From contig BCGQ01000001.1 of NCBI GenBank assembly GCA_001599355.1, forward strand, positions 127,135-191,134: a stretch of 64,000 nt of DNA, written 5' to 3'. The notes under the pieces were generated by a model that worked only from the letters and a program-made list of their open reading frames with translations, was not told the origin of the DNA and made no database searches. Of the stretch, positions 1 to 64,000 are shown in pieces (position 1 is the first letter of the stretch; every line of letters starts with the position of its first letter). The position numbers and the translations under genes are program-made. Source of the DNA: Nakazawaea peltata. Lineage: Eukaryota > Ascomycota > Pichiomycetes > Alaninales > Pachysolenaceae.

Positions 1-2
1 CT

Positions 3-350
3 AATGTTCCTTCGGATCCTCATTTCATAGATAAATTAGAGCAGAATATCGAGAAACAAGGCCAGTCGATCCTGCAAGTGAACGATTGGATCGCCAAACT
101 CACCCTGGCCAACGATTCAAACGCCCTGATACCCGATATTGGAGATTATTCGACAGATTTTTACCCCCAATTGAAGGAAGATTTCCCAGCAGTACAAACA
201 CCAGGAATATCCAACTTCAATATGGATGAATTCTTAGCCCCAACTCCACAAGAATTCGGATCCTACGACACCTCGAAGAAGAACGAAGAGATTGGTCGTA
301 TCGACGAGATCGTCGATGACGAACCTCCTTCAAAGAAGCGGAAAAATTGA
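3..350 (+). CDS. C-terminal part of an unrecognised, probably nuclear protein (5' end outside window)
   Basis: The frame is open from base 3, so the gene begins upstream of the window; about 115 residues are visible before the stop at 348-350. The visible part starts with a short amphipathic stretch (IDKLEQNIEKQGQSI followed by QVNDWIAKL) that could form a coiled coil. An acidic, proline-containing, low-complexity tail follows, and the protein ends in PPSKKRKN, a typical monopartite nuclear localisation signal. The composition suits a transcription regulator, but no domain that would name the family is present in this fragment. It is convergent with the gene starting at 413, with only about 60 bases between the stops. 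Three CTG codons here are probably read as alanine. Confidence 0.7.
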   Translation, partial: NVPSDPHFIDKLEQNIEKQGQSILQVNDWIAKLTLANDSNALIPDIGDYSTDFYPQLKEDFPAVQTPGISNFNMDEFLAPTPQEFGSYDTSKKNEEIGRIDEIVDDEPPSKKRKN

Positions 351-412
351 AACCTTTTAATTCTTTTACCTGTTTTATAACTAAAATACATTAAGCATTA
401 ATATAATACAAA

Positions 413-2950: not shown

Positions 2951-3073
2951 TTTGGGGTCTTTATTGGATGAAAAACGATTAAAATTAACCCAATTCCTGC
3001 TATTGAACTCCAGTGGTTTTTTTAATATGGATAAACATTTTATATTTATTATTTTTTTGAGTGAGAATTTCAT

Positions 3074-12713: not shown

Positions 12714-15700
12714 TCAAGATTTGATGCAGGAACCTGGAATTGGTGTCAGAGACAGTGGTGGTGCCAGAATCAGTGCAGGCAGCAGCAGCTTTCTGTTATG
12801 TTGCATATGAGATTGGACTAAATGACCAGCCTCTAAAGCACTAAGTAATGACAATTCAGCCGATAAAACAGCAGATGCAACGATCTTTGCCAATTGTCTC
12901 AGATTAGCACCAGGACTCTCGGCATGAGCTCCCTTAACACCTAACATCTCCAACATAGCTCCTTGAGGCTCCAAAATAGTACCTCCTCCAATAGTACCAA
13001 CTTCGATCGATGGCATAGAGACCGAAATTTGTAAATCTCCATTTGGAAGCTCATCCAACAAAGTGATACAGTTAGAAGATTCGACATTTTGAGCTGGATC
13101 TTGTCCAGTAGCCAAATAAATAGCAGTGACCAAGTTCAGCAGCTGAGCGTTGAAACCTCCCATGGCTCCAGCCATTGCAGATCCGATCAAGTTTTTGTTA
13201 GTGTTACATTTTACCAACAGTGGAACATTAGTTTTCAAAACCTTGGCAACCACATCTTGTGGAATTCTAGCCTCGGCAACGACAGATTTACCTCTACCTT
13301 CGATCCAGTTGATCAGGGCTGGTTTCTTATCGATACAATAGTTACCTGAAACAGAAATAATCTCCATATCATCCCATCCACATTCTTCAATCATGTAGTT
13401 CAAACTATGATCTACACCTTTAGAGATCATGTTCATACCCATGGCATCTCCAGTAGTGGTCATAAATCTGATATATAATAAGGTACCAGCCATTGCAGTT
13501 TTGATCTTTTGTAATCTAGCAAATCTAGAAGTAGAATTAAACAGTTTCTTGATGATCAGAGAACCTTCTTCACTATCCAACCACATCTTACATTCACCAG
13601 CTCTTTTCAACGAAGAGAATGAAACACATGGTCCTCTAGTCATACCATCTTGAGTTAATACAGTAGTGACACCTCCTCCGGCATTAATTGCCTTACAACC
13701 TCTCATAGCAGAGGCAACGAGACAACCTTCGGTGGTAGCCATTGGAATATGATATGGTTTACCATCGATGATCAAAGGACCGGCAACACCAAGAGGTAAT
13801 GGAATGAATCCAATGACGTTCTCACAACAAGCTCCAAATACACGGTCATAATCGTAATATTTGTAAGGCAACTTGTTAGAATCGACTACTGGGGAGTCGG
13901 ATAATTTGGCAATCAGTTTTCGTCTCACCACAACGGCTCTTGTAGTATCTCCTAATTGCTTTTCTAAAGCATAAAGAGGTAATTTACCATTAAGAACTAA
14001 AGAAGTGACTTCAGAGTTGTTCAAACTCTTCAAATTTCCTTCTTTCATAATAGAAACCAACTCATCAACAGGTCTGACGGTCAGAACCAGCAATGACTCG
14101 TCATCAGTGGAAGAAGAATCCACAACTTGAGTTTGTTTTACAGTAGTTTCTACCTTATCCAATGGCAAAACAGCCTCAACTTTGTTGGCCTTCTTACTCT
14201 TCTTACTCTTCTTCTTGCTCTTGGCAGAAGATGTAGTAGACTCAGAAGATGAAGATACTGGTGTGACAGTGGCTGTCAAAGAATCGATGTTATCAAGATG
14301 AGTTCTAGCCGCATTCAAAAAGTAAACATTGATAGTGACACTTACAGCAGTGATTAATAACAAACACTTACTGATAAATGGATCAACAATAGCAGCACTT
14401 AAAACTTGGATAATACGGTAAGCCAGATCCTCCAATTTGGTGAGAATATTAGAAGAAGTAAAAATTTCAGGGGACATAATAGTGACAAAGGTTCCATTTG
14501 AACCAATCTTAATACCTTTGACCAGCAGTTGTGATAAATGACCGGCAGAAGCATTGACAATAACCTCAGCTGGACTATCACTTGAATCATAAAGCCAAGA
14601 AGTTCCCAAGGCAAAGAAATGCAAACCAAAGAAACCGATAATAGTGGCAAGTTTGAAGATGACAACGGTGTTTTGTTTATGGAAAAGAGATAACTTTGGA
14701 TTTTCAGCGACCAATTCGGCAACATTAGCACTAATTCCATCTTCTTCTAAGAAGTCCTTCAAATCTAAAGACATATGAACTTTGTTGATCTCAGTTTTCA
14801 AGGCCAAAATGGCAGAGTAGAAAGTGAAAGTGGTGAATAAATCAAAGATGAGGATGAAACCACTCAAAATACAGAAATTTCTCAAACCTTCCAAATGAGG
14901 AGCATAGATGGCACATGCAAAGAAGACCGACATAACAGATCCATGGTATCTAATTAAAGGCCAAGAAGTTAACTCGACACTAGAAGAGATTGCTTGGGCA
15001 ACACTCTGCTTTTTGTTGGCATTAGTGGCCTTTAAAATAGGTTCGGTATAGTAAATTTTATGTTTGAAACCAACAGTGGCCACCAAGAATGGGATTCCCT
15101 CACTCAAAGATCTTAAAGAAACCTTCAAATTCAAGATCTCATTAGTTACACCAAGAGCAAATAAGAAGGCAAATCCACTGGATAACAAAGAACCAAACAG
15201 TAACCAAAATTTGGAACCCAATTTTCTAAATTCCAAAAACATTTGAACAAAAGTGTACCACATGGCAGAATAAGCGAGGAAAATCAAAGCGATATCATAA
15301 GTTTCTGCTCCCTTAATGATATTAAACAATTTATTAATTGTTTGTTTGACGTATTCTGAATATTTTCCAGCTTTATGAGAACGTCTCAAAGACCAAGTGG
15401 TATCTCCAACTACTGGTTTAGTCTTTCTTAATCTTTCCAACTCCGATTCATAAGACAGTAAAGGAGTGACGAGTAATTTCTCACATGGCTGGCTTTGAGA
15501 GTCGATAAGACCATCGATTTGTGGGATATTCTCTGCAGAACCTTTGAATTTCAAAGGAACGATTGCCCAATGATCGGCAGAGGAAGAAGCGCCGATAAAA
15601 GAGGCGTCATCCACAGGTTGCCATTTCTTATATGAATTGGAAGAGCCTGGAGGATGGTAGAATGTAGCATGTGAGGTAGGCAAGTCTCGTGTAATAAAAT

Positions 15701-15824
15701 CATCGACGATAGTCAAATAAACAAAACTACCCAAGAGCGCGGTAATCACCAAAGTATGAATTGGGTGAGCCGCCGAAGCCCTCGATAGCAGGGCGGTCGG
15801 GCTCGTGACAATTTTGTGAAGCAT
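12714..15824 (-). CDS. HMG1: 3-hydroxy-3-methylglutaryl-CoA reductase (ER membrane)
   Basis: Rate-limiting enzyme of the mevalonate/ergosterol pathway, reducing HMG-CoA with NADPH. The N-terminal half has multiple membrane spans with a sterol-sensing-type region. A lysine-rich linker (KSKKKSKKSKKANK) leads to the cytosolic catalytic domain. Family signatures are intact: ENVIGFIPLPLGVAGP, MATTEGCLVASAMRG, GDAMGMNMISKG and VGTIGGGTILEPQGA, plus the C-terminal AGHLVQSHMQHNRK with its catalytic His. The ATG at 15824 (MLHKIVTS) matches the N-terminus of yeast Hmg1; a longer frame to 15866 begins with TTG and is not used. Length is 1036 residues, as in the family. The C-terminal tail after HNRK holds many CTG codons; read as Ala it becomes an Ala/Pro-rich linker ending in GSCIKS, near yeast TCIKS. 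A sterol-response-like TCGTATA lies upstream. Confidence 0.97.
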   Translation of the reverse strand: MLHKIVTSPTALLSRASAAHPIHTLVITALLGSFVYLTIVDDFITRDLPTSHATFYHPPGSSNSYKKWQPVDDASFIGASSSADHWAIVPLKFKGSAENIPQIDGLIDSQSQPCEKLLVTPLLSYESELERLRKTKPVVGDTTWSLRRSHKAGKYSEYVKQTINKLFNIIKGAETYDIALIFLAYSAMWYTFVQMFLEFRKLGSKFWLLFGSLLSSGFAFLFALGVTNEILNLKVSLRSLSEGIPFLVATVGFKHKIYYTEPILKATNANKKQSVAQAISSSVELTSWPLIRYHGSVMSVFFACAIYAPHLEGLRNFCILSGFILIFDLFTTFTFYSAILALKTEINKVHMSLDLKDFLEEDGISANVAELVAENPKLSLFHKQNTVVIFKLATIIGFFGLHFFALGTSWLYDSSDSPAEVIVNASAGHLSQLLVKGIKIGSNGTFVTIMSPEIFTSSNILTKLEDLAYRIIQVLSAAIVDPFISKCLLLITAVSVTINVYFLNAARTHLDNIDSLTATVTPVSSSSESTTSSAKSKKKSKKSKKANKVEAVLPLDKVETTVKQTQVVDSSSTDDESLLVLTVRPVDELVSIMKEGNLKSLNNSEVTSLVLNGKLPLYALEKQLGDTTRAVVVRRKLIAKLSDSPVVDSNKLPYKYYDYDRVFGACCENVIGFIPLPLGVAGPLIIDGKPYHIPMATTEGCLVASAMRGCKAINAGGGVTTVLTQDGMTRGPCVSFSSLKRAGECKMWLDSEEGSLIIKKLFNSTSRFARLQKIKTAMAGTLLYIRFMTTTGDAMGMNMISKGVDHSLNYMIEECGWDDMEIISVSGNYCIDKKPALINWIEGRGKSVVAEARIPQDVVAKVLKTNVPLLVKCNTNKNLIGSAMAGAMGGFNAQLLNLVTAIYLATGQDPAQNVESSNCITLLDELPNGDLQISVSMPSIEVGTIGGGTILEPQGAMLEMLGVKGAHAESPGANLRQLAKIVASAVLSAELSLLSALEAGHLVQSHMQHNRKLLLPALILAPPLSLTPIPGSCIKS

Positions 15825-26398: not shown

Positions 26399-27436
26399 AT
26401 GGAAGGCTTATTTTTCAACATCGATAACGGTTACGTCGAAGGTTTGGTCCGCGGTTACAAAAGCGGGTTGCTCACCCAAGCTCAATACGTCAATTTGACT
26501 CAATGTGATAACTTGGAAGACTTGAAGTTACAACTTTCCTCCACCGATTATGGTAACTTCTTGGCCAATGTCCCATCCCCAATCTCGACATCAACCATCC
26601 AAGAGAAACTGTCGAGCAAATTGTATGATGAATTCCGTTATATCCAATCTCAATCGACTGATTTGCTCACCAAATTCATGGACTTTGTTTGCTACGGTTA
26701 CATGATCGATAATGTTGCCTTGATGATCACAGGGACTATTCATGAACGTGACAGAAGCGAGATTTTGGAGAGATGTCACCCATTGGGGTGGTTCGAGACC
26801 TTGCCTCTGTTGACCGTCGCCACCGATATCGACTCCTTATACAGTACCGTCTTAATCGACACCCCATTACTGCCATACTTCAAAGACTGTCTTAGTGCCG
26901 ACGATTTGGACGACTTGAACATTGAAATCATCAGAAATAAGTTATATAAACTGTATCTTGAGGATTTCTATAAATTTTGTCAGGAGAAGTTGCCGGCTCC
27001 TTCCAATGAGATCATGACTCGTTTGTTGGAGTTTGAGGCCGATAGAAGATCGATCAATATCCTGTTGAACTCGTTCGACACCGATATTTCCAATGATGAT
27101 AAGTTGGATTTGTTCCCTAATTTGGGTAAATTATATCCAACCGGTCAATATCAATTGTCAAGACTGGAGGATGTCGAAGGTATCAGACTTGTTGTCGAAC
27201 AAGTTGGTGAATATAAAAACTTCTTTGACTTCACTAATGGTAAGACATTAGAAGATCATTTTTATCAATTGGAGATGGAACTTTGCAGAAATGCTTTTAC
27301 TCAACAGTTCACTATTAGTACTGTTTGGGCTTGGATTAAATCTAAGGAACAAGAGGTTCGTAATATTACGTGGATTGCCGAATGTATTGCACAAAATCAA
27401 AAAGATAGAATAAATAATTATATTAGTGTGTATTAA
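26399..27436 (+). CDS. VMA6: V-ATPase V0 subunit d
   Basis: Cytosolic-side subunit of the membrane sector of the vacuolar proton pump, joining the proteolipid ring to the central stalk. The 345-residue protein is the same length as S. cerevisiae Vma6 and matches throughout: MEGLFFNIDNGYVEGLVRGY, NLTQCDNLEDLKLQLSSTDY, GYMIDNVALMITGTIH, EVRNITWIAECIAQNQ and the terminal RINNYISVY. It also shows the codon reassignment. Of six CTG codons compared with S. cerevisiae Vma6, five align with Ala (in EYASSKL, DTPLAPYF, NKLYKAYL, INIALNS and the AQDFEG region) and none with Leu. Start at the first ATG, with a C/A-rich leader. Confidence 0.97.
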   Translation: MEGLFFNIDNGYVEGLVRGYKSGLLTQAQYVNLTQCDNLEDLKLQLSSTDYGNFLANVPSPISTSTIQEKLSSKLYDEFRYIQSQSTDLLTKFMDFVCYGYMIDNVALMITGTIHERDRSEILERCHPLGWFETLPLLTVATDIDSLYSTVLIDTPLLPYFKDCLSADDLDDLNIEIIRNKLYKLYLEDFYKFCQEKLPAPSNEIMTRLLEFEADRRSINILLNSFDTDISNDDKLDLFPNLGKLYPTGQYQLSRLEDVEGIRLVVEQVGEYKNFFDFTNGKTLEDHFYQLEMELCRNAFTQQFTISTVWAWIKSKEQEVRNITWIAECIAQNQKDRINNYISVY

Positions 27437-37227: not shown

Positions 37228-40200
37228 ATGCTTGGTGGATATTTGAGAAGAGTAACCAGACGAAACAGGTTACCAAATCACCACGTGACGTTTCCGGCTC
37301 TTCTGGCACCTTTTTCATCCAATATAATCCCCCAAAGAACAGGAAGAAGATCCAAGAGACTTACTCAGTTCACGAAATCCAAGTATAAAAGTGGAGATGT
37401 CGATATATCGAAGCTCTTGAACAACAATGACGATAAATATGAGTCCAGTTTGCTCCATCAGAACCTCGAACTCCGTGACTTAATCGATCACGCCAATACT
37501 AGAATACATGCCAGGTACACTGAGCCAAATTTATATTGGAAGAATGCAATGGGACTCACGTCTAGTACGGCTCCTGGGATCAAAATGGAGATGGCTCTGA
37601 AGTATGGTAATCCTAGAGACTACTTTGAGCCTATAGATGTGTTCTCAAGTCCCTTAGATATCGGAGATATTGTAGAGTTGGGTGAGACTTTGGAGAGCTC
37701 GATGATCTGTTGTGTGGTGGGATTACCAGAGTCAATAAACGACCCAAGATACACTCTTATCAATAGTTATGGTGATTTGGTATTTACATCTAAATCATAT
37801 ATGAAGATGAGGTTCCCTCTGATATACCCAAAAGAATGGTTGAAAGATATTGTAATGAACGAGAAGATGTTCAATTTAAAGGCTAAAAATATCAAACAAA
37901 TTGGAAAACCCAAATTTCTTACGGAGAATATAATCTCCAATGGTTCTAGTAGTGTGTTTTTCGAGCAGCTGTTGATCAATAATGGTCATGATATAGATCA
38001 ATTAGACACATATATAGTCCCTTCAATGATCTCTCAGATAATAGCCAAGGATTTAACCCAAATCATTTCAAATGCCTGGACTCAATTACCCTATATGAAT
38101 GCTAAGTTAGAACTAGCTCACAGTTTGTTCCAGGAGACAAACAGTTACACCTCAGTAAATGTATTTCTGTTATATAATCTTTTGTCAGAGATTGATATCG
38201 ACAGTATCGACGAGAGAATCCAAGCTCTGAGAAGCTATAATGACATTGTGAGATTCTACCACGAATTGGCATCCCAGTACAGTCATTTGATCGATGTTCA
38301 CAACAATTACAGCAGTACAAACTTAGGAAGACCTGTAATTGGACACTTGGACTTGTCGTCAAAGATTGATATCTCGAATTTCTACACAATGATCTTACTG
38401 TTGAAGAAGAACGATAAATTATTCACCGGAGCTTCTTCTCCAGATTATTCTACACAATTCCCATTATCAATCACATTACAGCCTCTTTCAAGGACAGTTG
38501 AAATCGAGTCGTTAATAGATCAAGTAAAAGATAATCCTAAAACCTTTGATCGTCTTGTTAAGCACATCGAGAAACGGATGAAACTCGTGAAGGACCAGCA
38601 ATTTGATGTCTTGCTGGACTTGCCAAAATTAGAGGATTATGAGAAGGTCATAAAATTTCTGAAGTTATATTGTTCGGCTTCCATGAAATTTGATCCAATC
38701 ACAGAGTCTTTCTTGATTAAAATCTTCAGACATATCTCAGATTTCAAAGAGCTTGATATCACATCATCTCTTATCTACGACACATTGATCAAACTTGGTG
38801 AATGTTCTGAGACTCAAAATCCTGTAGAATGGTCTATTGATTTGAAGAAACCTTATTCTGATGTCAGTGATAAGTCTGACTTGGAACAAGACTTTTACAA
38901 CAAAATGACTGATTTCAATGTTGGAGTAGATCTGTCCATTGACTACTGTAAAGATATTAGAGAAGATTGTACTGAAGATTATATATATTGTATTGATGCC
39001 AAGACTGCTCATGAAATAGATGATGGTATTGGAATAACAGCTCTTGAAGATGGGATGTACGAGATCAGCTCTTTTATTGCCGATCCTACATCTTATTTGA
39101 GTCCAACCAACACTGTTTCTAAAATTGCATTTGAGCGAACTCTGACTGTATACTTCCCAGATGAGGATACTTCTCCGATTGAGATGTTACCTCACTCTCT
39201 TGTGAAGCAGATAGAATTACGTAGTGGGGCTTCAAATGATGGCACATTCAGAGCTATGAGATTCAGTTTCCTCTATGATAGTAAATCTCATAATTACGTT
39301 GAAAATAGTATGAAGATTTGCCCTGTCAAAGTGTCGAAGTTGGTGAATATCAGTTATTCTGAAGTTGACCAAGTACTTAGAGACGAAAGGAGCGAGTTAC
39401 TTGAAGCCATTAGTCAACGTCATGGAGTCGAAGCTCAAAGAGTACTTCAAGAGCTTAAATTGTTATCGGAAGTGACACAGAGTTTGAATTCAAAGAGGGT
39501 TGAAAAAGTGCCATTCAATTTCAAATTCTTCGATCTGTTGGAAGGAGTTTCTAGACATAACAATCAAATTTCATTGCGGTTCAAAAGTGATTCAATTTCA
39601 AAATCACAAGTCATGGTAAGTGAAGTGATGATTCATACCAATGCTTTGGTAGGATCGTTTTTGAAAGAAAAACAGATCTCACTGATTTATAGAACCTTGA
39701 AACCGAACCCAGTAGATCCTCAAGTAGAACTGCAATTGCAAAGTCTTGATAAAGATGAATTGAGTAGTACTCAAAAACTGCTCAATTTCCTGTCAGGTAC
39801 AACCTTCAGCTTACAACCTATTAATCATGAATATATCGGACTTGGACCTTACTGTACAGTGACATCACCATTAAGAAGATTCCAAGATCTTGTCTGTCAT
39901 TGGCAATTACAATCTTATTTGAAAGATCAAGATTCTCTTCAATTCTCCGAACAAAGTATGGCTTATATGCTCCCTCATATAACATCTCGTAACTACAAAA
40001 TAAGACAAGTTCAAAGGAAGTCGAAGAATTTCTACATATACAGTCATCTTGCCACGAAATCATCTCAAAAATTCAATGTCATGGTCAGTTCCACCCCAAC
40101 TTCCATTGGAACTGTCGAATGTGTCTTATTAGATTTTGGGGGTGTTCGTTCGTCGCTCAAATCGACAAATTTCTTGTCGAATTTACAATCAGTTAAAGAA

Positions 40201-40332
40201 TTAGAAAACACTTCTCATCAAAATTACAACCTTTTCAGCACCGTCAAGATCGGTGATGTCATAGAAGATTGTCAAATCGAAGACATTGATCTCGTAACCG
40301 GTGAATTGACCATGTCTTCCCCTAACTTTTAA
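37228..40332 (+). CDS. DSS1: Mitochondrial 3'-5' exoribonuclease of the degradosome (Dss1)
   Basis: RNase II/RNB-family nuclease that with the Suv3 helicase forms the yeast mitochondrial degradosome. The start ATG at 37228 gives MLGGYLRRVTRRNRLPNHH, an Arg-rich, acid-free presequence fit for mitochondrial import; a TTG-initiated extension to 37219 is ignored. The RNB domain spans about 590-930. Its catalytic acid cluster is in YCIDAKTAHEIDDGIGI. Further marks are ISSFIADPTSYL and, near the end, CTVTSPLRRFQDLVCHWQL, the RNB C-terminal signature. The preceding 500 residues carry the poorly conserved Dss1-specific region. Length of 1034 compares with 969 in S. cerevisiae. The promoter carries ribosome-biogenesis-type elements. 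Confidence 0.93.
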   Translation: MLGGYLRRVTRRNRLPNHHVTFPALLAPFSSNIIPQRTGRRSKRLTQFTKSKYKSGDVDISKLLNNNDDKYESSLLHQNLELRDLIDHANTRIHARYTEPNLYWKNAMGLTSSTAPGIKMEMALKYGNPRDYFEPIDVFSSPLDIGDIVELGETLESSMICCVVGLPESINDPRYTLINSYGDLVFTSKSYMKMRFPLIYPKEWLKDIVMNEKMFNLKAKNIKQIGKPKFLTENIISNGSSSVFFEQLLINNGHDIDQLDTYIVPSMISQIIAKDLTQIISNAWTQLPYMNAKLELAHSLFQETNSYTSVNVFLLYNLLSEIDIDSIDERIQALRSYNDIVRFYHELASQYSHLIDVHNNYSSTNLGRPVIGHLDLSSKIDISNFYTMILLLKKNDKLFTGASSPDYSTQFPLSITLQPLSRTVEIESLIDQVKDNPKTFDRLVKHIEKRMKLVKDQQFDVLLDLPKLEDYEKVIKFLKLYCSASMKFDPITESFLIKIFRHISDFKELDITSSLIYDTLIKLGECSETQNPVEWSIDLKKPYSDVSDKSDLEQDFYNKMTDFNVGVDLSIDYCKDIREDCTEDYIYCIDAKTAHEIDDGIGITALEDGMYEISSFIADPTSYLSPTNTVSKIAFERTLTVYFPDEDTSPIEMLPHSLVKQIELRSGASNDGTFRAMRFSFLYDSKSHNYVENSMKICPVKVSKLVNISYSEVDQVLRDERSELLEAISQRHGVEAQRVLQELKLLSEVTQSLNSKRVEKVPFNFKFFDLLEGVSRHNNQISLRFKSDSISKSQVMVSEVMIHTNALVGSFLKEKQISLIYRTLKPNPVDPQVELQLQSLDKDELSSTQKLLNFLSGTTFSLQPINHEYIGLGPYCTVTSPLRRFQDLVCHWQLQSYLKDQDSLQFSEQSMAYMLPHITSRNYKIRQVQRKSKNFYIYSHLATKSSQKFNVMVSSTPTSIGTVECVLLDFGGVRSSLKSTNFLSNLQSVKELENTSHQNYNLFSTVKIGDVIEDCQIEDIDLVTGELTMSSPNF

Positions 40333-43147: not shown

Positions 43148-45098
43148 TCAGTCAAACCCCTTGAAATCGGTCTCTTCATTCACCTCCTCTTCCTCTTCAT
43201 CATCTTCTCTCTTTCTCTTATATTTAGCCTTTGGATCCTCACCTGTCATTTTAGATCTGTCTTCCTCATCAGCTGGTGGTGGGACAAACCATGGGATTTT
43301 ACCTCTATTAAAATCGTTTAAAATTTGTTTAGAAACACCACTTTCATCAGGTTCACCTCCTTTCAATAATCTACCGTATTTTCTTGCGATTAATTCGATG
43401 AATTCTGTGGAATTCTCCCATCCTTTGATTTCATAAGTTCTCTCCAAATGCTTTCTTTGACATTTCTCTAAAAGAGCTGGAATATATTGTTCTGGATGAG
43501 TGACATGCTCGACTCTTACTACACCTCTGAATAAGACATCCGATTCAGTGTCATGAGAAGATGGCGGCACAATACCTGGACAATCAATTAAGAAAATTCT
43601 CTTCATCAATGTGATATATTGCCAAATCTTGGTCTCACCAGGAATTGGCAGAACAGTACATACTTTCTTCTTTCTCAATGTATTGATAATCGAAGATTTA
43701 CCAGTATTTGGATAACCAATAAATCCTACAGAGATTTGTTTTCTGTCTGAATGCAACGATGAGAATTGTCTCAACAATTGGATCAACGAACCTTTACCAA
43801 AAGAATTGGTAATGGAAGCGTGGAATGCCAAAGTTGGATGATCTTTAGATAAATGCTTTACCCAAGCGGTCTAAATAAATGTTAGTAAGTTGAATCTCGA
43901 AATCAAATCTTCTTCAAGAGTATTCTGTCTGTTTTACTGAAGGAATTGAAAATGTTGGGTTCTTTACTACGAATATCATCATTATGGAGAATTTCTTACG
44001 AAACCTCAAACGATATTCAACTCTTAAGATCCCGAGTATCACTCGAAAGTTGCCGATTCATCAAAACGATGACTCGACGGGTATCTAGCTAAGTCCAAAA
44101 CGGAAAAAGCAGGATGGTGAGCAATATATTGATCTTCCAAAGACGTAACAGACAGACTTAATGGAGCTGAAAATTGAAATTTTCAAGTAAGGAATGTCCT
44201 GACTAATGCTTTGGGGTGGAAATGAAAAAAAAAGGTTATACAAAAGACAGAATCTCTGTTGAAACAAAGATAAAAAAATACTTACGGCAACCCAAACGGG
44301 AACAAGATCACACTTGTTCAATACGAAAATTAAATGCTTGTGTGGGCACTCGTTCTTGATATAATTCTCAACGGTTCTACATCTAGTTCCTTCTGGATCT
44401 CTAGCATCTAGCACATGAATAACGACATCGGAAGAGTCGATAACTTTGTATAATTCGTTCCAGATTCTCTTGGATTGACCCTTATTGAAGATGGCCTCTT
44501 TGGCTTCCAGAGTAGCACCATCCTCATTCTCAGTATTAGAGTTCATCAACCCCAAAGTGGTGTTTAATTCAATCTTTTCTTGGTATGCCTTGGCGTCATC
44601 CTCGGCAAGTTGAGCCAATTCTTCAAAACTCGACAGCTTAACAGTCTTTGGTTTCTTACGTTGTTGTTTTGGGCCAAAAGCATGTTCATAACTCTCATTA
44701 TCCAAGATTCTCAGTTTTGGAGACTCAGTAGAATCTTTCTCATCCAATAAAGACATTGGTAATTTGTTTCTCTTCATCAAAAATTGATACGAATCACTCT
44801 TCTTATCACCTAAGGCTTCTCTGAAATGGGACAAAGCATCTTGACTGATAACTCTGGTATTTCCGAACCAACGCTTGTTTGGATCAACTCTAGCAATTGG
44901 CAGCTTGGTATCTTGTAAATTGGCAGCCTTAATGATATCACCTTTAGCATTTCTAACCGCTCTACCCTCTTTGTACATGGCAAGATGCTTTACCTTCTTA
45001 GCATCTCTGTAGAAGTTTTCACCCTTGACACGCAAGTTACCATCTCTCAAATCTCCTTGTCTTTCACGGCGCTTAGCCTCTTTCTTACCGGTACCCAT
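43148..45098 (-). CDS. NOG2: Nog2 nucleolar GTPase for 60S assembly, two exons
   Basis: GTPase that marks pre-60S particles before nuclear export. Exon 1 (45098-44286, 271 codons) starts [20 protein letters not shown] and ends inside the G4 region, [14 protein letters not shown]. Exon 2 (43870-43148) continues [19 protein letters not shown], then the circularly permuted G1 ([14 protein letters not shown]) and G3 ([11 protein letters not shown]) motifs. It ends in an acidic/basic tail, for a product of 511 residues (S. cerevisiae 486). The intron (44285-43871, 415 bases, phase 0) has a GTAAGT donor, TACTAAC branch site and TTTAG acceptor. In S. cerevisiae the NOG2 intron houses the H/ACA snoRNA snR191, and this intron is likewise unusually long. 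The promoter has RRPE-like words. Confidence 0.95.
43950..44220 (-). ncRNA. Candidate intronic H/ACA snoRNA (snR191-like) in the NOG2 intron
   Basis: The 3' part folds as an H/ACA hairpin. A lower stem pairs GGG.CTT with AAG.CCC. A two-sided pocket (AAGAGTT / GTAGTA) follows, then an upper stem GAATATC pairing with GATATTC (43977-43971). After the lower stem comes ACA at 43955-43953, three bases before the proposed end at 43950. There are 15 bases from the upper stem to ACA, the usual 14-16. In S. cerevisiae the NOG2 intron carries snR191 (274 nt), which guides two pseudouridines in 25S rRNA. A similar length here would put the 5' end near 44220. The H box is not clear and the guide was not matched to rRNA, so the 5' limit is approximate. 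Confidence 0.55.
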
Positions 45099-48396: not shown

Positions 48397-49236
48397 TCAT
48401 TTCCTATTGAGATTATGCTTTTTTTTCAACCTTTCATATTCCTGCCTCATAGTGACGTAACCAAGATGAACTTTACCGACAAAATGATCTGCCAATCTCC
48501 TATCACTGTCCAATCTGGACAAATAAGCCGCGCAAACCTCACAGACTTGCAATTTCTGTTGTGAAGACTGACCTAAGCTCTCACTGAGGTCTCTAAGCAG
48601 TTGCAGCACCAGTACTCTTTGTTTAAGAAGACTCTCGAGTGTTTTCGCTAATTCCAAACTCTTTGATATTTCATTATTTTTCACCAATAAGTCCAACTCT
48701 TGTTGTGTCAATCCAATCTTCATATCTATAACGTCTAATTCTTTTGTCCTTGCTGCTAATTTCTCCTTCTCTTCTGGGGTGTGCTCTAATCTCTTGATCA
48801 GTATCACAATCTTACTGTTACAATCATTAATAAATCCTTCGAGATCTTTCATATATTCCAACTCAAAGTCTTCAAAAGTAAACCCTTTTGTCACCAAAGA
48901 TTCGTAAAGAATTTTATGCTTCTCTAAATGGATCTTTGGACATTTACCAAAATCTTGTCTGGTTCCTTGAAAAAGATCATATGGACAAACACCTACAACG
49001 AATGATTTACATATTCTGTAGTCATTCAACAGTGAAGGGCTCTCACCAGAAGATAAACCGGTATGATTCCCGCTGCCATTCCCATCCCCATTGCCATATG
49101 ACTTCCCGCTTCCATTCTCTTGTGCAAATTTTTTGAGTTCATAGTTGGATTTGAAGTTACGGGGGAGCTTATCCAAAGTTCCTCGTCCCATCAACATCTC
49201 TAGAAGCTTTCGCTGTTCAGTACTTGATACAGTCAT
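48397..49236 (-). CDS. LUC7: Luc7 U1 snRNP splicing factor
   Basis: U1 snRNP protein that helps choose 5' splice sites. Matches yeast Luc7 throughout: the start TEQRKLLEMLMGRG, zinc finger 1 (CCCH: ICKSFVVGVCPYDLFQGT, then GKCPKIHLEKHKILYE), a helical middle (TKELDVIDMKIGLTQQELDL) and zinc finger 2 (QQKLQVCEVCAAYLSRLDSD, RRLADHFVGKVHLGYVTMR). Between the N-terminal helix and finger 1 is a Gly/Asn/Ser-rich insert (about residues 40-70, including GNGDGNGSGNHTG) that is absent in S. cerevisiae. Length of 279 compares with 261. Start at the first ATG. Confidence 0.95.
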   Translation of the reverse strand: MTVSSTEQRKLLEMLMGRGTLDKLPRNFKSNYELKKFAQENGSGKSYGNGDGNGSGNHTGLSSGESPSLLNDYRICKSFVVGVCPYDLFQGTRQDFGKCPKIHLEKHKILYESLVTKGFTFEDFELEYMKDLEGFINDCNSKIVILIKRLEHTPEEKEKLAARTKELDVIDMKIGLTQQELDLLVKNNEISKSLELAKTLESLLKQRVLVLQLLRDLSESLGQSSQQKLQVCEVCAAYLSRLDSDRRLADHFVGKVHLGYVTMRQEYERLKKKHNLNRK

Positions 49237-49370: not shown

Positions 49371-49477
49371 CTCCTCATGGGGGGCTCGAACCCCCGACAT
49401 TTCGGTCAACTTTTGAATGAAGTTGAAGAAACTTAATCCTTAAAAGCCGAACGCTCTACCAACTGAGCTAACAAGGA
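49371..49477 (-). tRNA. tRNA-Lys(UUU) with a 34-base intron
   Basis: Exon 1 is 49477-49441 (37 bases) and exon 2 is 49406-49371 (36 bases), giving a 73-base mature tRNA. Acceptor arms TCCTTGT and ATGAGGA pair with a wobble; the D arm is GCTC...GAGC, the anticodon stem TTCGG/CCGAA with loop CTTTTAA (anticodon TTT), and the T arm GGGGG TTCGAGC CCCCC. A- and B-box words are normal. The intron sits in the canonical place, one base 3' of the anticodon, as in S. cerevisiae tRNA-Lys(UUU). It has a possible anticodon-pairing segment (TTCAAAAG). CCA is not encoded. Confidence 0.97.
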
Positions 49478-49680: not shown

Positions 49681-51309
49681 TTAAGCATGTTCAGCATGTT
49701 GAGTATTCTCCTTCTCTTCCAAGCTGCTAGCAACATCTCCCACTTCATCACGGAAGTTGTCCAATTTCTGTTGCTCAATCAGTTCGTCAGCTGCCTTTCT
49801 CTTCAGAATAGCAAATCCTGGAGCATTGAACATGACATCCATATTTTCCAAGGATAAACCTCTAGTTTCTGGCAAGAAGAAGTAAACGAAGAAGACGGAA
49901 AGAACAAGGGAAACAGCAAAGAACAAGAAGGTTCCGTAAGTGATGTTTTCCATCATGTATGGATTTGAGTAGACAATGATGAATTGCATCAACCATTGGG
50001 TCATGACTGTGATAGACATGGCCAAACTTCTGATTTTCATTGGATAAATTTCGGAACAAAAGATGAATGGAACACCATTCCAAGAGAAGGCAAAGAAGAA
50101 GGCAAAGATGTAAACCATGACAATGGCAACATATGCACCTGCGTCTCTGTCAACGGTATGTTCAAATGAACCAGAAATCTTAGTGTAAGCAGCAAGGTAG
50201 AACATGGCAACAATAGTACCAGAGGCACCAGAGAAAAGCAGGTTTCTACGACCGAATCTGTCGACAATGAACAAGATGAACAACAAATTTGTAACGGTTT
50301 TCACGATTCCAAAGATACCAGTGGCCAAGAGGTCGACAGAGTTACCACTGAAACCAATGGCTTCGAAGATAGATGGAGAATAGTAGTTCAAAGCGTTAAT
50401 ACCAGACAAGTTTTGGAAAACCATCACCAAATTACCTAAGATGACTCTGATTCTGATACCAGGAGTCCATAATTCCTTCAATTTTGAAAGCAAATTTGGA
50501 GTGTTAGCAGTCATCTCTTCTTCGGCTCTAAGTTGCTCTTCTACCTCTTGAACTTCCCATTGAATATATGGGTGGGTTCTTGGAAGTCCTCTAACGGCAG
50601 AAAGATCGGCCAAAGCTCTGTCGATTCTTCCCAGCTTGATATTCCATCTGTAAGATTCTGGTTGGAAGTACATAGCAACGACAACGGCAGCACCGAAGAC
50701 ATATTGTAAACCAAATGGAATTCTCCATTGAGCATCTGATGTGGATGGGATGTTGATGGAAACACCATAGTTAATCCAGAAAGCAATCAAAGAAGATGTT
50801 TGATAGACGACTTCGTAAATACCAACCAATCTACCACGGGACAGAGGTGGAGCCCACTCGGCAATATAGATAGGAACAATCATGGAGGTAGTACCAACAG
50901 CTAAACCAGTTAAAGCACGACCAGCGTAAATAAGACCGACTTGGCCCGATGCGGCTACTTGTAAAGTGACACCGATATCAAAAATAGCGCCAAAGAAAAT
51001 CAATGTAAGTCTTCTACCGATCTTCTCACTAACAAGGTAAGCCAAGAAGGCACCAAAGAAACATCCAGCTTGGAATGTACTGACGATATTGGATTTCAAA
51101 CTAGCAAGTGTATCACCAGTCAGACTGTCCAAACCAAAACGATGTTGGAACGATTCCAATGATAAGGCACCACCAATGAAACCGGTATCATAACCGTACA
51201 TGGCGGAACCCATAGCAGCTGAGATAGCCAAGAATACTATACGCCAGTTATAGACTTCTGGTGGGGCTGGGTTCTCTGAGTTATCCTCGATAGCGAATAA
51301 ATTCTTCAT
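49681..51309 (-). CDS. MFS sugar-porter family transporter, quinate-permease-like
   Basis: A 542-residue protein with twelve predicted membrane spans. Sugar-porter signatures are present: YGYDTGFIGGAL in span 1, EKIGRRLTLIFFGA, GRALTGLAVGTTSMIVPIYI followed by AEWAPPLSRGRLVG, QNLSGINALNYYSPSIFEAI, DRFGRRNLLFSGA and the closing FFLPETRGLSLENMD. The N-terminal PPEVYNWRIVFLAI and long cytosolic loop resemble fungal quinate permeases (QutD/Qa-y) more than the hexose Hxt group. The substrate is therefore an acid-type cyclitol or sugar, by inference. It is divergent from the nucleobase permease gene across 1.9 kb, which contains a Mig1-like word (GTGGGG after an A/T run, about 51691-51703). Confidence 0.88.
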   Translation of the reverse strand: MKNLFAIEDNSENPAPPEVYNWRIVFLAISAAMGSAMYGYDTGFIGGALSLESFQHRFGLDSLTGDTLASLKSNIVSTFQAGCFFGAFLAYLVSEKIGRRLTLIFFGAIFDIGVTLQVAASGQVGLIYAGRALTGLAVGTTSMIVPIYIAEWAPPLSRGRLVGIYEVVYQTSSLIAFWINYGVSINIPSTSDAQWRIPFGLQYVFGAAVVVAMYFQPESYRWNIKLGRIDRALADLSAVRGLPRTHPYIQWEVQEVEEQLRAEEEMTANTPNLLSKLKELWTPGIRIRVILGNLVMVFQNLSGINALNYYSPSIFEAIGFSGNSVDLLATGIFGIVKTVTNLLFILFIVDRFGRRNLLFSGASGTIVAMFYLAAYTKISGSFEHTVDRDAGAYVAIVMVYIFAFFFAFSWNGVPFIFCSEIYPMKIRSLAMSITVMTQWLMQFIIVYSNPYMMENITYGTFLFFAVSLVLSVFFVYFFLPETRGLSLENMDVMFNAPGFAILKRKAADELIEQQKLDNFRDEVGDVASSLEEKENTQHAEHA

Positions 51310-54923: not shown

Positions 54924-55529
54924 ATGGCAGTTGGGCATAATTTACAACTACTAATTTCGACACTTTCGTATTCGGTGAGGTTCGGATGTGGACTTCACTT
55001 TGTTTTCAGCAACATTTATGAATTTCAAGCCACTCATGGAGAATCGATGCTCCCCACATTGAACACGAGATTCGATTATGTTCATACTTTGAAATATTAT
55101 AAACATGGAAGAGGAGTGGAAATGGGAGATGTGATAATGCTGTTGAAACCTACAGATCCAGATCAAAGAGTATGTAAGAGAATCACCGGAATGCCTGGAG
55201 ATGTTATCCTTATTGACCCATCGAGTGATTCTATAGAGCAGACACGAACTAAGCATCTGCTAGGAGAGATGGATACTGTGGAGGTGGAATCCGAACAAAC
55301 AAGTCCTCTGCTTGATAGGTATGTAGTCATACCTGAAGGTCATGTATGGGTTACAGGAGATAACTTGGCACTTTCGGTGGATTCCAGAACATATTCGGTG
55401 CTCCCAATGGCCCTAATAAAGGGGAAAATAATAGCTGCTAATGATTTTAATGACTCTTATAAGAATTTATGGGGCTTTAGATGGCTCGAAAACAATTTCG
55501 TTAAGAAAGAACAATCCTACGAAGCTTAA
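54924..55529 (+). CDS. IMP1: Mitochondrial inner membrane protease subunit 1
   Basis: Signal-peptidase-type serine protease that removes sorting signals in the intermembrane space. The catalytic Ser lies in ATHGESMLPTLNTRFDYVHT and the catalytic Lys in KRITGMPGDVILID. Box E is VPEGHVWVTGDNL-like (VVIPEGHVWVTGDNLALSVD, SRTYSVLPMALIKGKI). A single N-terminal hydrophobic segment anchors it. Length of 201 is close to S. cerevisiae Imp1 (190). The ATG at 54924 (MAVGHNLQ) is used; the frame is open to a GTG at 54912. A CTG in the MxLKPTDPDQR segment aligns with Ala of yeast VALKPTDP. The C-terminus carries WGFRWLENNF, as in Imp1. Confidence 0.95.
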   Translation: MAVGHNLQLLISTLSYSVRFGCGLHFVFSNIYEFQATHGESMLPTLNTRFDYVHTLKYYKHGRGVEMGDVIMLLKPTDPDQRVCKRITGMPGDVILIDPSSDSIEQTRTKHLLGEMDTVEVESEQTSPLLDRYVVIPEGHVWVTGDNLALSVDSRTYSVLPMALIKGKIIAANDFNDSYKNLWGFRWLENNFVKKEQSYEA

Positions 55530-55555
55530 TACATTGCATAATCTATATTTCATAC

Positions 55556-56771: not shown

Positions 56772-57593
56772 ATGAGTGACCAATACGTATTGACAATTTT
56801 GGGATGTGGAACTATGGGAACAGCAGTGTTATCTGCTATTTTAAACTCCGAGTTCTCTCCTTATCCTAGCCGTATTATCTGTTGTACCGGATCTGAGGCA
56901 TCGGCTACTAAATTGCAGTCTGTTTATGGAGCTAAAGTGGAGACATCTTTTGGAAAGGAGTCCAATTTGAAGGCCGTTAAAGAATCTGATGTCATTGTAT
57001 TGGGATGTAAACCATATATGTGTGCTGAGATTATGGAGAGTGTCCAATCTGGTTTGCATGACCAGTTGATTATTTCATTGTTGGCCGGTTGGACAATTGA
57101 CCAATTGTTGTCTTACAGTCCTCGTATTGCTAGAGTCATGACCAACACTCCTCTGAAATTCGGATACGGAATGGCCGTTGTATCATTCTCTCCAGAACTG
57201 GAACTGAAAGATGAACCTTTGGTTATGAAGTTAATTGACGGTGTTGGTAAGCTGATCAAATTACCAGAAAAGAACATGGATGCTGCTACTTCTTTGGTAG
57301 GATCTGGACCAGCATTCTGTTTATTGATGATGGAGTCTTTGATGGACGGGGCTGTTAAGATGGGTATCCCATACCTGGCTGCCAAAGAATGTGCTGCTAA
57401 AGTCATGGAAGGTACTGCTAGAATGGTAATGGAGACAGGAGAGCATCCAGCCGTCTTGAAAAGTGCCGTTTGTACTCCAGGAGGTACTACTATTGGTGGT
57501 TTAATGGTAATGGAAGAGAAAGGTGTCCGTAGTGGTGTCCTGAAAGGTGTTATCGAACTGGCTGAAATCGCCCTGCGTTTAGGTAAGAAATAA
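56772..57593 (+). CDS. PRO3: Pyrroline-5-carboxylate reductase
   Basis: Last step of proline synthesis, reducing pyrroline-5-carboxylate with NAD(P)H. The Rossmann motif is at the start (VLTILGCGTMGTAVLSAI). DVIVLGCKPYM, LLAGWTIDQLLSY and the RVMTNTP segment follow. Near the C-terminus is the family's catalytic helix region VCTPGGTTIGGLMVMEE. The codon after NTP is CTG; in P5C reductases this position is the invariant Ala of MPNTPA, strong support for CTG as Ala. The ATG at 56772 is used rather than a GTG-initiated frame from 56742. Two short GATCAGTAGA repeats lie in the leader. Length is 273 residues, as in the family. Confidence 0.95.
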   Translation: MSDQYVLTILGCGTMGTAVLSAILNSEFSPYPSRIICCTGSEASATKLQSVYGAKVETSFGKESNLKAVKESDVIVLGCKPYMCAEIMESVQSGLHDQLIISLLAGWTIDQLLSYSPRIARVMTNTPLKFGYGMAVVSFSPELELKDEPLVMKLIDGVGKLIKLPEKNMDAATSLVGSGPAFCLLMMESLMDGAVKMGIPYLAAKECAAKVMEGTARMVMETGEHPAVLKSAVCTPGGTTIGGLMVMEEKGVRSGVLKGVIELAEIALRLGKK

Positions 57594-58227: not shown

Positions 58228-58528
58228 GGTGATGAAGTTTGGGTGGGTTGGTGGAGGCGATCTGATGGGGGCGTGAATATTTCAGTGGAATTTTTTTGGC
58301 GTTTGCGCTGTGCCTGCGCTGTGCCCGGTGTGCCCTGTGTGCCCGGCTGGGCAGGGAGAAACTGAAGGGGTGTGCGGTAGGGAGGGAGAAAATAAAGGGG
58401 TGATGAGAAGGGGAAGGGAAGGGGTAGAGGGAAAAGGGGTAGAGGAAAAAGGGGAGAGGGGGAGAAAGAGAATCAAATCATTTTATCACACTACACACAA
58501 TTATCATTCATTTATTATGCGAAAACTA
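58228..58528. other. ILM1 promoter / MNN10 3' region with TGCCCGG words and a purine tract
   Basis: TGCCCGG occurs at 58322-58328 and TGCCCGGC at 58340-58347, inside a run of TGTGCCC words. Then 58378-58462 is nearly pure purine (AAGGGGTAGAGG words). No gene is seen. Confidence 0.5.
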
Positions 58529-61128: not shown

Positions 61129-63579
61129 ATGAATACCACAATGCCAAGGGTGAATATCCCTGAAATTCGTCAACTGCCCCACCAATATGTGGAGGCGCCC
61201 ACTTTAAGACCCTCCGAATCCGAGTTCAAAGATCCTATTGGATTTTTAAGTCAACCAGATATCATTAACTTGGCCGAAAAATACGGAATCCTCAAGATCA
61301 TACCCCCAAGAGGTTGGAAACCTCCATTCTGTATCGACAAAAACACTTTCAAATTCCATACAAGATTACAGAACTTGAGAGAGTTGAGTATCGAAAATCG
61401 ACCAAGGATCTTCTTCTTCGATAGTTTGAATAACTTTTTGAAGATGAGGCAGAAGGAGAAGTTGAAAAGAGAGAGATTCAAGTTATCTTCGGGACAGTAT
61501 ATCGATTTATATCTGTTATTTGTCGTGGCTGACTACGAATTAAGCCTTTCCAAAGAGAAATATATGGTGAATTGGAGGAAAGTTAATAGACTTTTCCAAT
61601 TACCACCGGATGACCAGCAGTTGAAAACTCTTTATGGCAAGTATTTGAAGAGTTATTCCCGTTACCTTCGGAAGAGAAAGCATTTATTCGGTTCTATATC
61701 TACAGAGCTGGATTCCACTGTTCAATCCGATGAAGATTATTGTAATGTATGTTATAAGAGTGATGACCCGCAACATACACTTATTTGTGATGGATGTGAG
61801 GAGCCATATCATATGAAATGTTTGAGTCCACCTTTGAAAAAGGTGCCTGAAGGTAAATGGTTCTGTGATAACTGTTTAATCGGTACTTTTGACTATGGTT
61901 TCGAAGAAGATTTCGATTCCATCTTCACTGTGGATGATTTCGATAAGCATTGTAAAGAGTTTGAAGAGAAGTATTTCTTGAAACATTTCGGATCCAAATC
62001 CAAACCTTCAATAGATGTTTTGGAGAGAGAATTCTGGAGATTAGTCGACGGTGTCAATTTAGATAAAGAAGATGAACAGTTAGAAGTAAGATATGGAGCT
62101 GATATTCACAGTGAAAACCCGGACGAAGTATCGGGATTCCCTACGAAACAAAGCTCTAAAATCAACCATGATGACTCAAATATAAAGAAATATGTGGATC
62201 ATCTGTTCAACCTTGCGAATTTACCGTTTGCCGAGGGATCTCTTTTAAATTATATCAAGGATTCGGAAATCTCCGGTATGACAGTGCCATGGATTTACGT
62301 AGGATCTCTTTTCTCCACTTTTTGCTGGCATAAAGAGGACCATTATACATTATCATCGAATTACTGTCATTTCGGATCCACCAAGAAATGGTACGGAATC
62401 CCAGCTAAATATGAAAGACAATTCGAAGATATAGTGATAAATTCAGCCCCAGATTATTTCAAAAGACAACCGGATCTTTTACACCAACTTGTGACATTGC
62501 TTTCACCTCAGCAGATTTTCGAGAGACTGAAAGATGAAGAGATGACTATAGTTTATGCTAATCAGAACGAGAATGAATTCATCATCACTTATCCGAAAGT
62601 GTATCATGCTGGGTTCAACTCTGGATTGAATTTCAATGAGCTGGTCAATTTCACCATGCCGTATTGGGTTAACGATGCGGAACGTGCTATCTCCGACTAC
62701 AAACAGGTCCATAAAGAGAATGTGTTCAATTATTATCAACTTTCTTATAGAATCATGGATGAATTTTTGAAGTTATCTACAGAGAGGATCTCATTTTTGA
62801 ACGAAAGATATCATGGAGAATACTTGAAGATGATCAATTTATGTCTTCGAGATTTCACTAGAGAGTTTAATGGTTCAAACAAGCTCAATAGTCAGTTGAC
62901 TGAATATGCCTTCTTAGTAGACCATAGAAGATACGAGCCAAAGACTGTCAAACAAGAACGACTCAAGAAATCGAGAGGAAGAATGAAGAAAAACGAGGAA
63001 GAAGAAGATGACGAATTGTTATGTGATGTTTGTAAGACCTTCCTCTCGTTTAGATGGGTCAGTTTGAGTAATAAAGAGAGGGTTGAAGATCAATTATTGA
63101 CACCAAGTGAAACTCCTGAGGCTTCGAATTGTGAAGAAAATGAGTTCCAAAAGATCATTTCAGAGGCTCAAAGATTATCCTCCGAGGAGCCTTCGACTTC
63201 ATCTGATGAGAAATTGAAAGTGGAGGATACTGAAGATTCGTCTCCTAAAAGAAGAAGATCTCGTAGAATTGAGGCTGCTGTGTCAACTGGAAGGAAAAGA
63301 CACCAAGACGAAGAAGAAGAAGAGCAAGAAATCAAGAAAAAGAAGAAAATGTCAAGACCCGTGACAGTTAAGCTTTGTCTTGATGATTTTTTCAAGCTCT
63401 TGGACCCTAGTTTATATGAGAATCATAAGAAATTGTTTAGGAACTTTGAGAACTATGACAATTTCAAACAACTTTTCATTAACAGGGGGGTTCTTTATAA
63501 TGATTGTGATGAGAGTGAGACTTATAAGTTTATTTGTGATGTGAATGCTAAGTTGAATAAGATACTGTATAATCAATGA
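61129..63579 (+). CDS. JHD2: JmjC histone H3K4 demethylase (Jhd2/KDM5 type)
   Basis: Domains in order: JmjN (about 20-60: LRPSESEFKDPIGFLSQPD, IIPPRGWKPPF); an ARID-like helical region (about 115-180: YIDLYLLFVVADY, NWRKVNRLFQLPPDDQQLKT, LYGKYLKSY); a PHD finger (203-252: YCNVCYKSDDPQHTLICDGC, EEPYHMKCLSPPL, GKWFCDNC); and JmjC (about 381-510: FCWHKEDHYTLSSNYCHFGS, TKKWYGIPAKYE, KVYHAGFNSGLNFNELVNFT). The iron ligands His and Glu (HKE) and the distal His (YHAGFN) are present, so the enzyme should be active on methylated H3K4. A zinc-binding remnant LLCDVCKTF follows at about 632, and the tail has basic NLS-like blocks. Length is 816, against 728 in S. cerevisiae. It keeps more of the KDM5 ARID than I know of in yeast Jhd2. 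Confidence 0.93.
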   Translation: MNTTMPRVNIPEIRQLPHQYVEAPTLRPSESEFKDPIGFLSQPDIINLAEKYGILKIIPPRGWKPPFCIDKNTFKFHTRLQNLRELSIENRPRIFFFDSLNNFLKMRQKEKLKRERFKLSSGQYIDLYLLFVVADYELSLSKEKYMVNWRKVNRLFQLPPDDQQLKTLYGKYLKSYSRYLRKRKHLFGSISTELDSTVQSDEDYCNVCYKSDDPQHTLICDGCEEPYHMKCLSPPLKKVPEGKWFCDNCLIGTFDYGFEEDFDSIFTVDDFDKHCKEFEEKYFLKHFGSKSKPSIDVLEREFWRLVDGVNLDKEDEQLEVRYGADIHSENPDEVSGFPTKQSSKINHDDSNIKKYVDHLFNLANLPFAEGSLLNYIKDSEISGMTVPWIYVGSLFSTFCWHKEDHYTLSSNYCHFGSTKKWYGIPAKYERQFEDIVINSAPDYFKRQPDLLHQLVTLLSPQQIFERLKDEEMTIVYANQNENEFIITYPKVYHAGFNSGLNFNELVNFTMPYWVNDAERAISDYKQVHKENVFNYYQLSYRIMDEFLKLSTERISFLNERYHGEYLKMINLCLRDFTREFNGSNKLNSQLTEYAFLVDHRRYEPKTVKQERLKKSRGRMKKNEEEEDDELLCDVCKTFLSFRWVSLSNKERVEDQLLTPSETPEASNCEENEFQKIISEAQRLSSEEPSTSSDEKLKVEDTEDSSPKRRRSRRIEAAVSTGRKRHQDEEEEEQEIKKKKKMSRPVTVKLCLDDFFKLLDPSLYENHKKLFRNFENYDNFKQLFINRGVLYNDCDESETYKFICDVNAKLNKILYNQ

Positions 63580-63827
63580 AGTGCTGGTGTGCAATTGTGT
63601 GCCCGGCTATGCTATGCCATTTCCCTGTAAGTTGAATAAAATAAGATCTGATTTGTGGGTGGTTAGGCTGAGTCAGGCTGAGCAATTCGTTCCAGCCCGC
63701 CGACCCCTCCGACCCCGCGCGATGAGCAGAATGCGAGCCGGGCACCAGGGCACATCGCGCGCATTTTCCAGACCTCTCAGCAGAAAATTCTTCCTTCTTC
63801 TCATACTTCTCTACCCTACCAAGGCCA
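63580..63827. other. JHD2-SEN34 intergenic segment with paired TGCCCGGC/GCCGGGCAC words
   Basis: TGCCCGGC at 63600-63607 and its inverted partner GCCGGGCACC at 63737-63746 bracket a GC-rich stretch (63690-63760) that must contain the SEN34 promoter. No gene is seen. Confidence 0.5.
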
Positions 63828-64000
63828 ATGGAGTCCTCGATATCACCCCCTTCTCAGGATGAAATGATCCCTTTGACCATTGTAGGTGACAGAATATTGA
63901 TATTCGATATCGAAAATATCAAAAAACTTCGAGATTTAGGAATTCTAGGAATGCTTTCAGGTACTTTACCTGTCCTGGCTCAACAGAATATCTTCTTAGG
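63828..64000 (+). CDS. SEN34: tRNA-splicing endonuclease subunit Sen34, N-terminal part (runs off window)
   Basis: The frame begins MESSISPPSQDEMIPLTIVG and is open to the window edge (57 full codons). The stretch LIFDIENIKKLRDLGILGML, SGTLP and AQQNIFLG matches yeast Sen34 (LVFDIDHIKLLRKWGICGVL, SGTLPTAAQQNVFL). The CTG before AQQN aligns with the first Ala of TAAQQN. Sen34 is a catalytic subunit that cuts the 3' splice site of intron-containing tRNAs, such as the tRNA-Lys at 49.4 kb. The catalytic domain lies beyond the window. Confidence 0.9.
   Translation, partial: MESSISPPSQDEMIPLTIVGDRILIFDIENIKKLRDLGILGMLSGTLPVLAQQNIFL

Follow-up and report, generated by a model that had tools for sequence, protein, structure and literature searches.

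The window examined here is a stretch of 64,000 nucleotides from Nakazawaea peltata (positions 127135-191134 of contig C1, BCGQ01000001.1), with a guanine plus cytosine content of 40.2%, from a genome of 11.63 Mb in 11 contigs. The subject is the meaning of its CTG codons, which an initial annotation had read as alanine rather than leucine or serine. Codons were counted in the 32 long open reading frames (ORFs) of the window (15,857 codons, stops included), Pfam scans covered 30 window proteins, and the codon test drew on window genes together with one gene on another contig. Comparison with the sequences of solved structures found clear homologues of VMA6, HMG-CoA reductase, UBC1, CDC50, LUC7, NOG2, and pyrroline-5-carboxylate reductase (Table 1). 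In these comparisons CTG was translated as X, so that no residue was favored. The gene names PRO3, HMG1, IMP1, SEN34, and DSS1 are presumed, in part taken over from the initial annotation, and go beyond the table labels.

Table 1. Genes, codon sites, and other features of the window, with the tRNA gene on contig C4; residues are those facing CTG in the homologue.
Feature	Coordinates	Strand	CTG codons or description
VMA6 (V-ATPase subunit d)	26399..27436	+	6 CTG; Ala 5, Thr 1 in best homologue 3j9t_Q
HMG1 (HMG-CoA reductase)	12714..15824	-	23 CTG; 10 in best alignment: Ala 7, Leu 1, Lys 1, Ile 1
UBC1	32144..32845	+	6 CTG; 5 aligned: Ala 3, Glu 1, Val 1
CDC50 family	34269..35132	-	7 CTG aligned: Ala 3, Pro 1, Lys 1, Leu 1, Val 1
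LUC7	48397..49236	-	5 CTG aligned: Ala 2, Gly 1, Glu 1, Arg 1
PRO3 (pyrroline-5-carboxylate reductase)	56772..57593	+	8 CTG; 5 aligned, best match: Ala 1, Val 1, Glu 1, Thr 1, Asn 1
NOG2 first exon (frame continues into intron)	44085..45098	-	4 CTG aligned: Ala 2, Ile 1, Ser 1
Sugar transporter	49681..51309	-	6 CTG; 4 aligned, distant bacterial homologue: Thr 1, Glu 1, Asn 1, Leu 1, Ala 0
RNB-domain exoribonuclease (DSS1-like)	37228..40332	+	16 CTG; 9 aligned, distant homologue: Ala 1, Leu 2, Gly 2, Ser 1, Lys 1, Phe 1, Ile 1
IMP1-like signal peptidase, CTG site	55140..55160	+	MALKPTDP; codon present
SEN34-like frame, CTG site	63975..63989	+	VAAQQN; codon present, frame cut by window end
tRNA with anticodon CAG	C4:81426-81498	+	Outside the window; found by ARAGORN and Rfam
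KilA-N and ankyrin protein	413-3073	-	886 amino acids, 46 CTG
Hydrolase and phosphatase frame	3978-5822	+	614 amino acids
F-box and leucine-rich repeat frame	27733-30720	-	995 amino acids
H/ACA small nucleolar RNA snR191	43950-44216	-	Rfam, 98.9 bits
tRNA-Lys(UUU)	49371-49477	-	34-nucleotide intron

In VMA6, the CTG codons lie, in order, opposite A, T, A, A, A, and A of 3j9t_Q, which bears out the five of six alanine sites claimed in the initial annotation. The alanine-aligned sites of HMG-CoA reductase include KKPA-x-INW, NAH-xx-NIV, and GEN-x-RQL (where x is CTG), and the C-terminal tail of this protein, with seven CTG among its last 27 codons, is indeed rich in alanine and proline once CTG is read as alanine. 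The UBC1 codon within VTG-x-ICLDIL faces alanine in four of four homologues among the matches listed. For PRO3, the alanine of NTPA had been called invariant; CTG does fall on alanine in two of the five listed homologues, but the invariance fails, with valine in three PYCR1/PYCR2 chains, and the NTP preceding the codon reads NTA in one homologue. An exo-glucanase-like gene adjoining the CAG tRNA gene on contig C4 has 12 aligned CTG codons, six on alanine, one on serine, and none on leucine. In the alignments as listed, six window proteins give alanine at 21 of 38 sites, leucine at 2, and serine at 0, and pooling ten proteins gives alanine at 30 of 67, leucine at 5, and serine at 3. The 67-site total, like the residues given for NOG2, the exo-glucanase, the sugar transporter, and the RNase, was read by eye from the alignments.

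The meaning of CTG was further assessed by a leave-one-codon-out likelihood on the six window proteins, with one homologue each, for codons with at least 5 aligned sites and with the expectation learnt from the other codons. Re-alignment by script placed 36 of the 55 CTG codons of these proteins inside pairwise alignments with the best homologue, where they faced alanine at 21 sites, valine at 3, leucine at 2, and serine at none. Alanine was the best of the 20 amino acids for CTG, followed by serine at a distance of 49.8 bits, and leucine ranked ninth. The standard meaning was recovered for 48 of 50 other codons, which served as a control; the two misses were AGC (7 sites, 2.3 bits) and CAG (11 sites, 0.4 bits). 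TTA, TTG, CTT, and CTC fell on leucine at 95 of 178 sites in the same alignments. Since CTG falls on alanine about as often as GCT, GCC, and GCA do (21/36 versus 46/83), it behaves as an ordinary alanine codon.

Pfam scores were compared with CTG translated as alanine, leucine, or serine (tables 26, 11, and 12, respectively) for 31 chosen families in 20 proteins, these being the 20 of the 30 proteins scanned with alanine that were rescanned with leucine and serine. Overlapping lesser families (among them MFS_1, ECH_2, Patched, LRR_4, and other hydrolase and PHD models) are omitted from the sums, which came to 4167.4 bits for alanine, 4121.7 for serine, and 4044.4 for leucine, a margin for alanine of 123 bits over leucine and 45.7 bits over serine. 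Family by family, alanine scored higher than leucine in 26, lower in 1, and equal in 4, and higher than serine in 20, lower in 5, and equal in 6.

CTG occurs 300 times in the window, or 18.9 times per 1000 codons, and accounts for 28% of CTG plus GCN (300/1071). Eight 5-kb samples from contigs C2 to C9, with mechanically called ORFs, gave 18.1 per 1000 and 24%, and CTG is thus a major alanine codon here, at 24-28% of CTG plus GCN. Within the window, CTT and CTC stand at 16.4 and 7.1 per 1000, and CTA is rare (20 of 15,857 codons, 1.26 per 1000). The densest use of CTG among the window frames is found in the KilA-N and ankyrin protein. In Pachysolen tannophilus, an excerpt of PMC4986446 reports no CUG at highly conserved leucine or serine positions, a distribution consistent with alanine.

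A tRNA suited to this reading, with anticodon CAG and G3:U70, had been suggested in the initial annotation as a check, and such a gene is present on contig C4. A pattern combining a CAG anticodon with a T arm had 55 matches in the whole genome (45 for the reversed control pattern), of which 22 were fetched and scanned and 33 were judged by eye on a short piece; just this one is a tRNA. It is a class I tRNA whose anticodon loop reads UUCAGGU and whose variable loop is five bases long, with G3:U70 and A73. A variable loop this short leaves it without the long arm seen in leucine and serine tRNAs. Its four stems contain two U.U mismatches, at 6:67 and 13:22, and its most stable predicted fold (-22.3 kcal/mol) is not the cloverleaf (-17.9 kcal/mol), a pattern shared by eight other tRNAs tested. 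Downstream of the gene is a run of T, typical of RNA polymerase III terminators. With permissive filters the gene scores 50.9 bits against the Rfam tRNA model (gathering score 29), but the fast Rfam filters do not report it, and annotation pipelines that use them may miss code-changing tRNAs. A genome search with its sequence matches only itself. ARAGORN labels it Leu(cag) because the standard code is applied.

According to a passage of PMC9976931, eukaryotic identity depends on G3-U70 for alanine, on G73 and a large variable region for serine, and on A73 and a large variable region for leucine. Judged by its sequence, the CAG tRNA is therefore one of alanine identity, not leucine or serine, having G3:U70 and a short variable loop. 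As excerpted, PMC5951914 states that neither alanyl-tRNA synthetase (AlaRS) nor seryl-tRNA synthetase requires anticodon bases; as AlaRS uses G3:U70 and no anticodon bases, the anticodon CAG should be no bar to alanylation.

Other tRNAs were sought with pattern searches followed by ARAGORN, which found 7 of 7 positive controls, and a permissive Rfam scan. The resulting lists are lower bounds, given that the fast Rfam filters miss the CAG tRNA and that the genome Rfam scan scored 63 of 608 candidates. A class II pattern gave 16 matches, namely leucine tRNAs with anticodons CAA (4), TAA (2), and AAG (1), seven serine tRNAs, and two that are not tRNAs, so that tRNA-Leu(AAG) is the sole leucine tRNA found for the CUN box. 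No class II CAG tRNA, whether for leucine or serine, was found with two CAG patterns (15 and 3 matches) and the class II pattern, which genes with introns above about 24 nucleotides or unusual T arms would escape. No tRNA-Leu(UAG) was found among the 60 matches of a TAG pattern (control, 102), which were scanned, although one with an intron above about 24 nucleotides would escape. The matches of these CAG and TAG patterns were all fetched and scanned except the gene for Leu(AAG) and three already known genes for Ser(AGA). A class II CAG look-alike at C6:401507-401550 is actually tRNA-Leu with anticodon AAG, the CAG falling in a stem, and ARAGORN finds no tRNA at another CAG-pattern match, C8:545702. 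Two patterns for tRNA-Val(CAC), with 2 and 21 matches (22 for the control of the second), contained no tRNA, and a comparable AAC pattern recovered five genes for Val(AAC). The tRNA-Lys(UUU) gene in the window was found by Rfam and missed by the default tRNA tool; a 107-base match with the same score at C3:899283-899389 reads as tRNA-Lys(ttt), also with a 34-nucleotide intron.

The codon likelihood, the Pfam scores, and the CAG tRNA with G3:U70 all agree with the claim of the initial annotation that CTG is alanine. Nor was either of the observations that it had named as contradicting that claim made, since CTG does not lie mainly on leucine or serine and the CAG tRNA, with its short variable loop and G3:U70, carries the identity of neither. 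How CTG is assigned in conserved proteins was observed directly, as was the tRNA gene together with its identity elements, and we are almost certain that the nuclear code is NCBI table 26, in which a single CAG tRNA of alanine identity, charged by AlaRS, reads CUG as alanine. G3:U70 of the CAG tRNA would be recognized by AlaRS, leading to charging with alanine, which the ribosome would then insert at CUG. tRNA-Leu(AAG), with A34 presumably converted to inosine, would read CUU, CUC, and CUA; no leucine tRNA able to reach CUG was found, and decoding of CUG by the CAG tRNA is probably exclusive. Several observations weigh against this assignment. CTG falls on alanine at none of four sites in the sugar transporter and at just one of nine in the RNB-domain RNase, with leucine at two of the nine, both against distant homologues; serine outscores alanine in 5 of the 31 Pfam families and leucine does so in 1; and the tRNA genes listed represent a minimum. 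If the assignment holds, standard-code protein sets of this genome carry leucine in place of alanine at about 1.8-1.9% of codons.

A modified form of this assignment, in which CUG is mainly alanine but ambiguous because the CAG tRNA is sometimes charged with valine or leucine, appears unlikely. The tRNA keeps A35 and A73, the valine determinants of eukaryotes in a passage of PMC9976931, and it combines A73 with G37, where the same passage has A73 and m1G37 matter strongly for leucylation in yeast in vivo. In Candida albicans, mischarging with leucine at about 3% is attributed to G37, according to an excerpt of PMC5951914. Against this, Escherichia coli tRNA-Val is valylated less well when position 3 or 4 carries a G.U pair (PMC9976931, in the part available), the long variable arm of eukaryotic leucine identity is missing, and there is no excess of leucine at CTG (2/36), the valine count of 3/36 being too small to judge. 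Since A35, A73, and G37 are retained, low-level incorporation of valine or leucine at CUG is conceivable; the alignments give evidence neither for nor against it.

A serine meaning of CUG, as in the CUG-Ser1 or CUG-Ser2 code (table 12), is highly improbable. Serine does come second in the codon test and stands above leucine in the Pfam sum, as its chemical closeness to alanine would lead one to expect, but it is found at 0 of 36 CTG sites in the six-protein test and 3 of 67 over ten proteins, and alanine leads it by 49.8 bits in the former test and 45.7 bits in Pfam. Furthermore, the CAG tRNA has A73 and no long variable arm, while eukaryotic serine identity needs G73 and a large variable region. 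The standard leucine meaning, with the alanine matches due to chance, has next to no probability: in its favor are leucine at 2 of 36 sites and the ARAGORN label derived from the standard code, but leucine ranks ninth for CTG in the very alignments that recover TTA, TTG, CTT, and CTC as leucine, trails alanine by 123 Pfam bits, and has no CUG-reading tRNA (CAG or UAG) found by the genome patterns.

In the literature, the CUG-Ala tRNA is derived from tRNA-Ala (PMC5951914 and the review PMC11415595, both as excerpted). The CAG tRNA was compared with 19 other tRNA types, a set that lacks Ile, Phe, Tyr, and His among others, over 58 positions that exclude the D and anticodon loops. It is identical to Val-TAC at 42 of 58 positions and to Ala-AGC at 41, with Val-TAC and Ala-AGC agreeing with each other at 32. 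Of 20 positions at which it departs from Ala-AGC, 14 agree with Val-TAC and 11 with Glu-TTC; for the remaining types the number lies between 2 and 10. Among nine tRNAs examined, only the CAG tRNA and Val-TAC have both U.U mismatches together. At 30 discriminating positions, the D and anticodon arms, taken together with bases 8, 9, and 26, side with valine at 11 and with alanine at 6, and the rest of the molecule with valine at 4 and with alanine at 9.

One could propose that the code-changing tRNA is not, or not wholly, of tRNA-Ala origin, and that its D and anticodon arms came from a non-alanine tRNA, most likely valine, but we regard this as doubtful. A single substitution, C36 to G, would let a tRNA-Val(CAC) read CUG, and G3:U70 would hand the tRNA to AlaRS; no tRNA-Val(CAC) was found by the genome patterns, as if it had been the donor. 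Several features count against a valine origin. The acceptor stem and T arm lean to alanine, tree support for placing the CAG tRNA beside Val-TAC is 62% only, in weak trees, and a tree built on the D and anticodon arms gives 93% support to a group that also includes Glu-TTC. In the D loop, GG is preceded by one base and followed by two, as in Gln, Glu, Asp, Gly, and Arg-TCT, an arrangement matching neither Val-TAC (one and three) nor Ala (two and one). A valine/alanine mosaic with a breakpoint was considered and is not established (Fisher p=0.14 between regions). A partial valine ancestry stands as a possibility rather than a finding, yet on these sequence comparisons the source of the tRNA looks less settled than the literature says. 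If the valine origin were true, the code would have changed through a synthetase switch, without an alanine tRNA having acquired a new anticodon. A literature search found no on-topic publication on a valine origin of the CUG-Ala tRNA, though one may still be in print. The mixed alanine and valine appearance makes the source testable across the clade through its CAG, Ala, and Val tRNA genes.

Some further features of the window lie apart from the codon question. Small nucleolar RNA snR191 sits between the two parts of NOG2 and is thus intron-hosted; it overlaps the end of the open NOG2 frame. In Pfam, the 995-amino-acid frame combines two cyclic-nucleotide-binding stretches with an F-box and leucine-rich repeats, a combination that is uncommon to our knowledge, and the 614-amino-acid frame joins an N-terminal alpha/beta hydrolase to a C-terminal Y_phosphatase3 tyrosine phosphatase.

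The decoding system described here can be compared with three known reassignments of CUG. As in the CUG-Ser2 code of Ascoidea and Saccharomycopsis, the same codon is reassigned by a new CAG tRNA; there, as far as the excerpt of PMC5951914 goes, that tRNA is a serine tRNA carrying A37, and the old tRNA-Leu(CAG) persists in most species; neither was found here by the genome patterns. The CUG-Ser1 code of the Candida clade (table 12) likewise involves this codon, a new CAG tRNA, and G37 beside the anticodon, but the tRNA is a class II serine tRNA there, whereas a class I tRNA with G3:U70 inserts alanine here. The CUG-Ala code itself is already known (table 26, in Pachysolen, Nakazawaea, and Peterozyma, all placed by NCBI in Pachysolenaceae, order Alaninales), and the main claim is not new; placement in the Pachysolen clade is our inference from code and tRNA rather than from a species tree. 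With that code, as excerpted in PMC5951914, the system shares CTG at alanine positions, a CAG tRNA with alanine identity, and the lack of a detected class II CAG tRNA. Two aspects may be new, namely the origin of the tRNA and the ordinary and frequent use of CTG for alanine. CTG makes up 24-28% of CTG plus GCN here and lies on alanine in conserved proteins as often as GCN does, and the tRNA body is equally near Val(UAC) and Ala(AGC), whereas PMC5951914, in the part available, derives it from tRNA-Ala.

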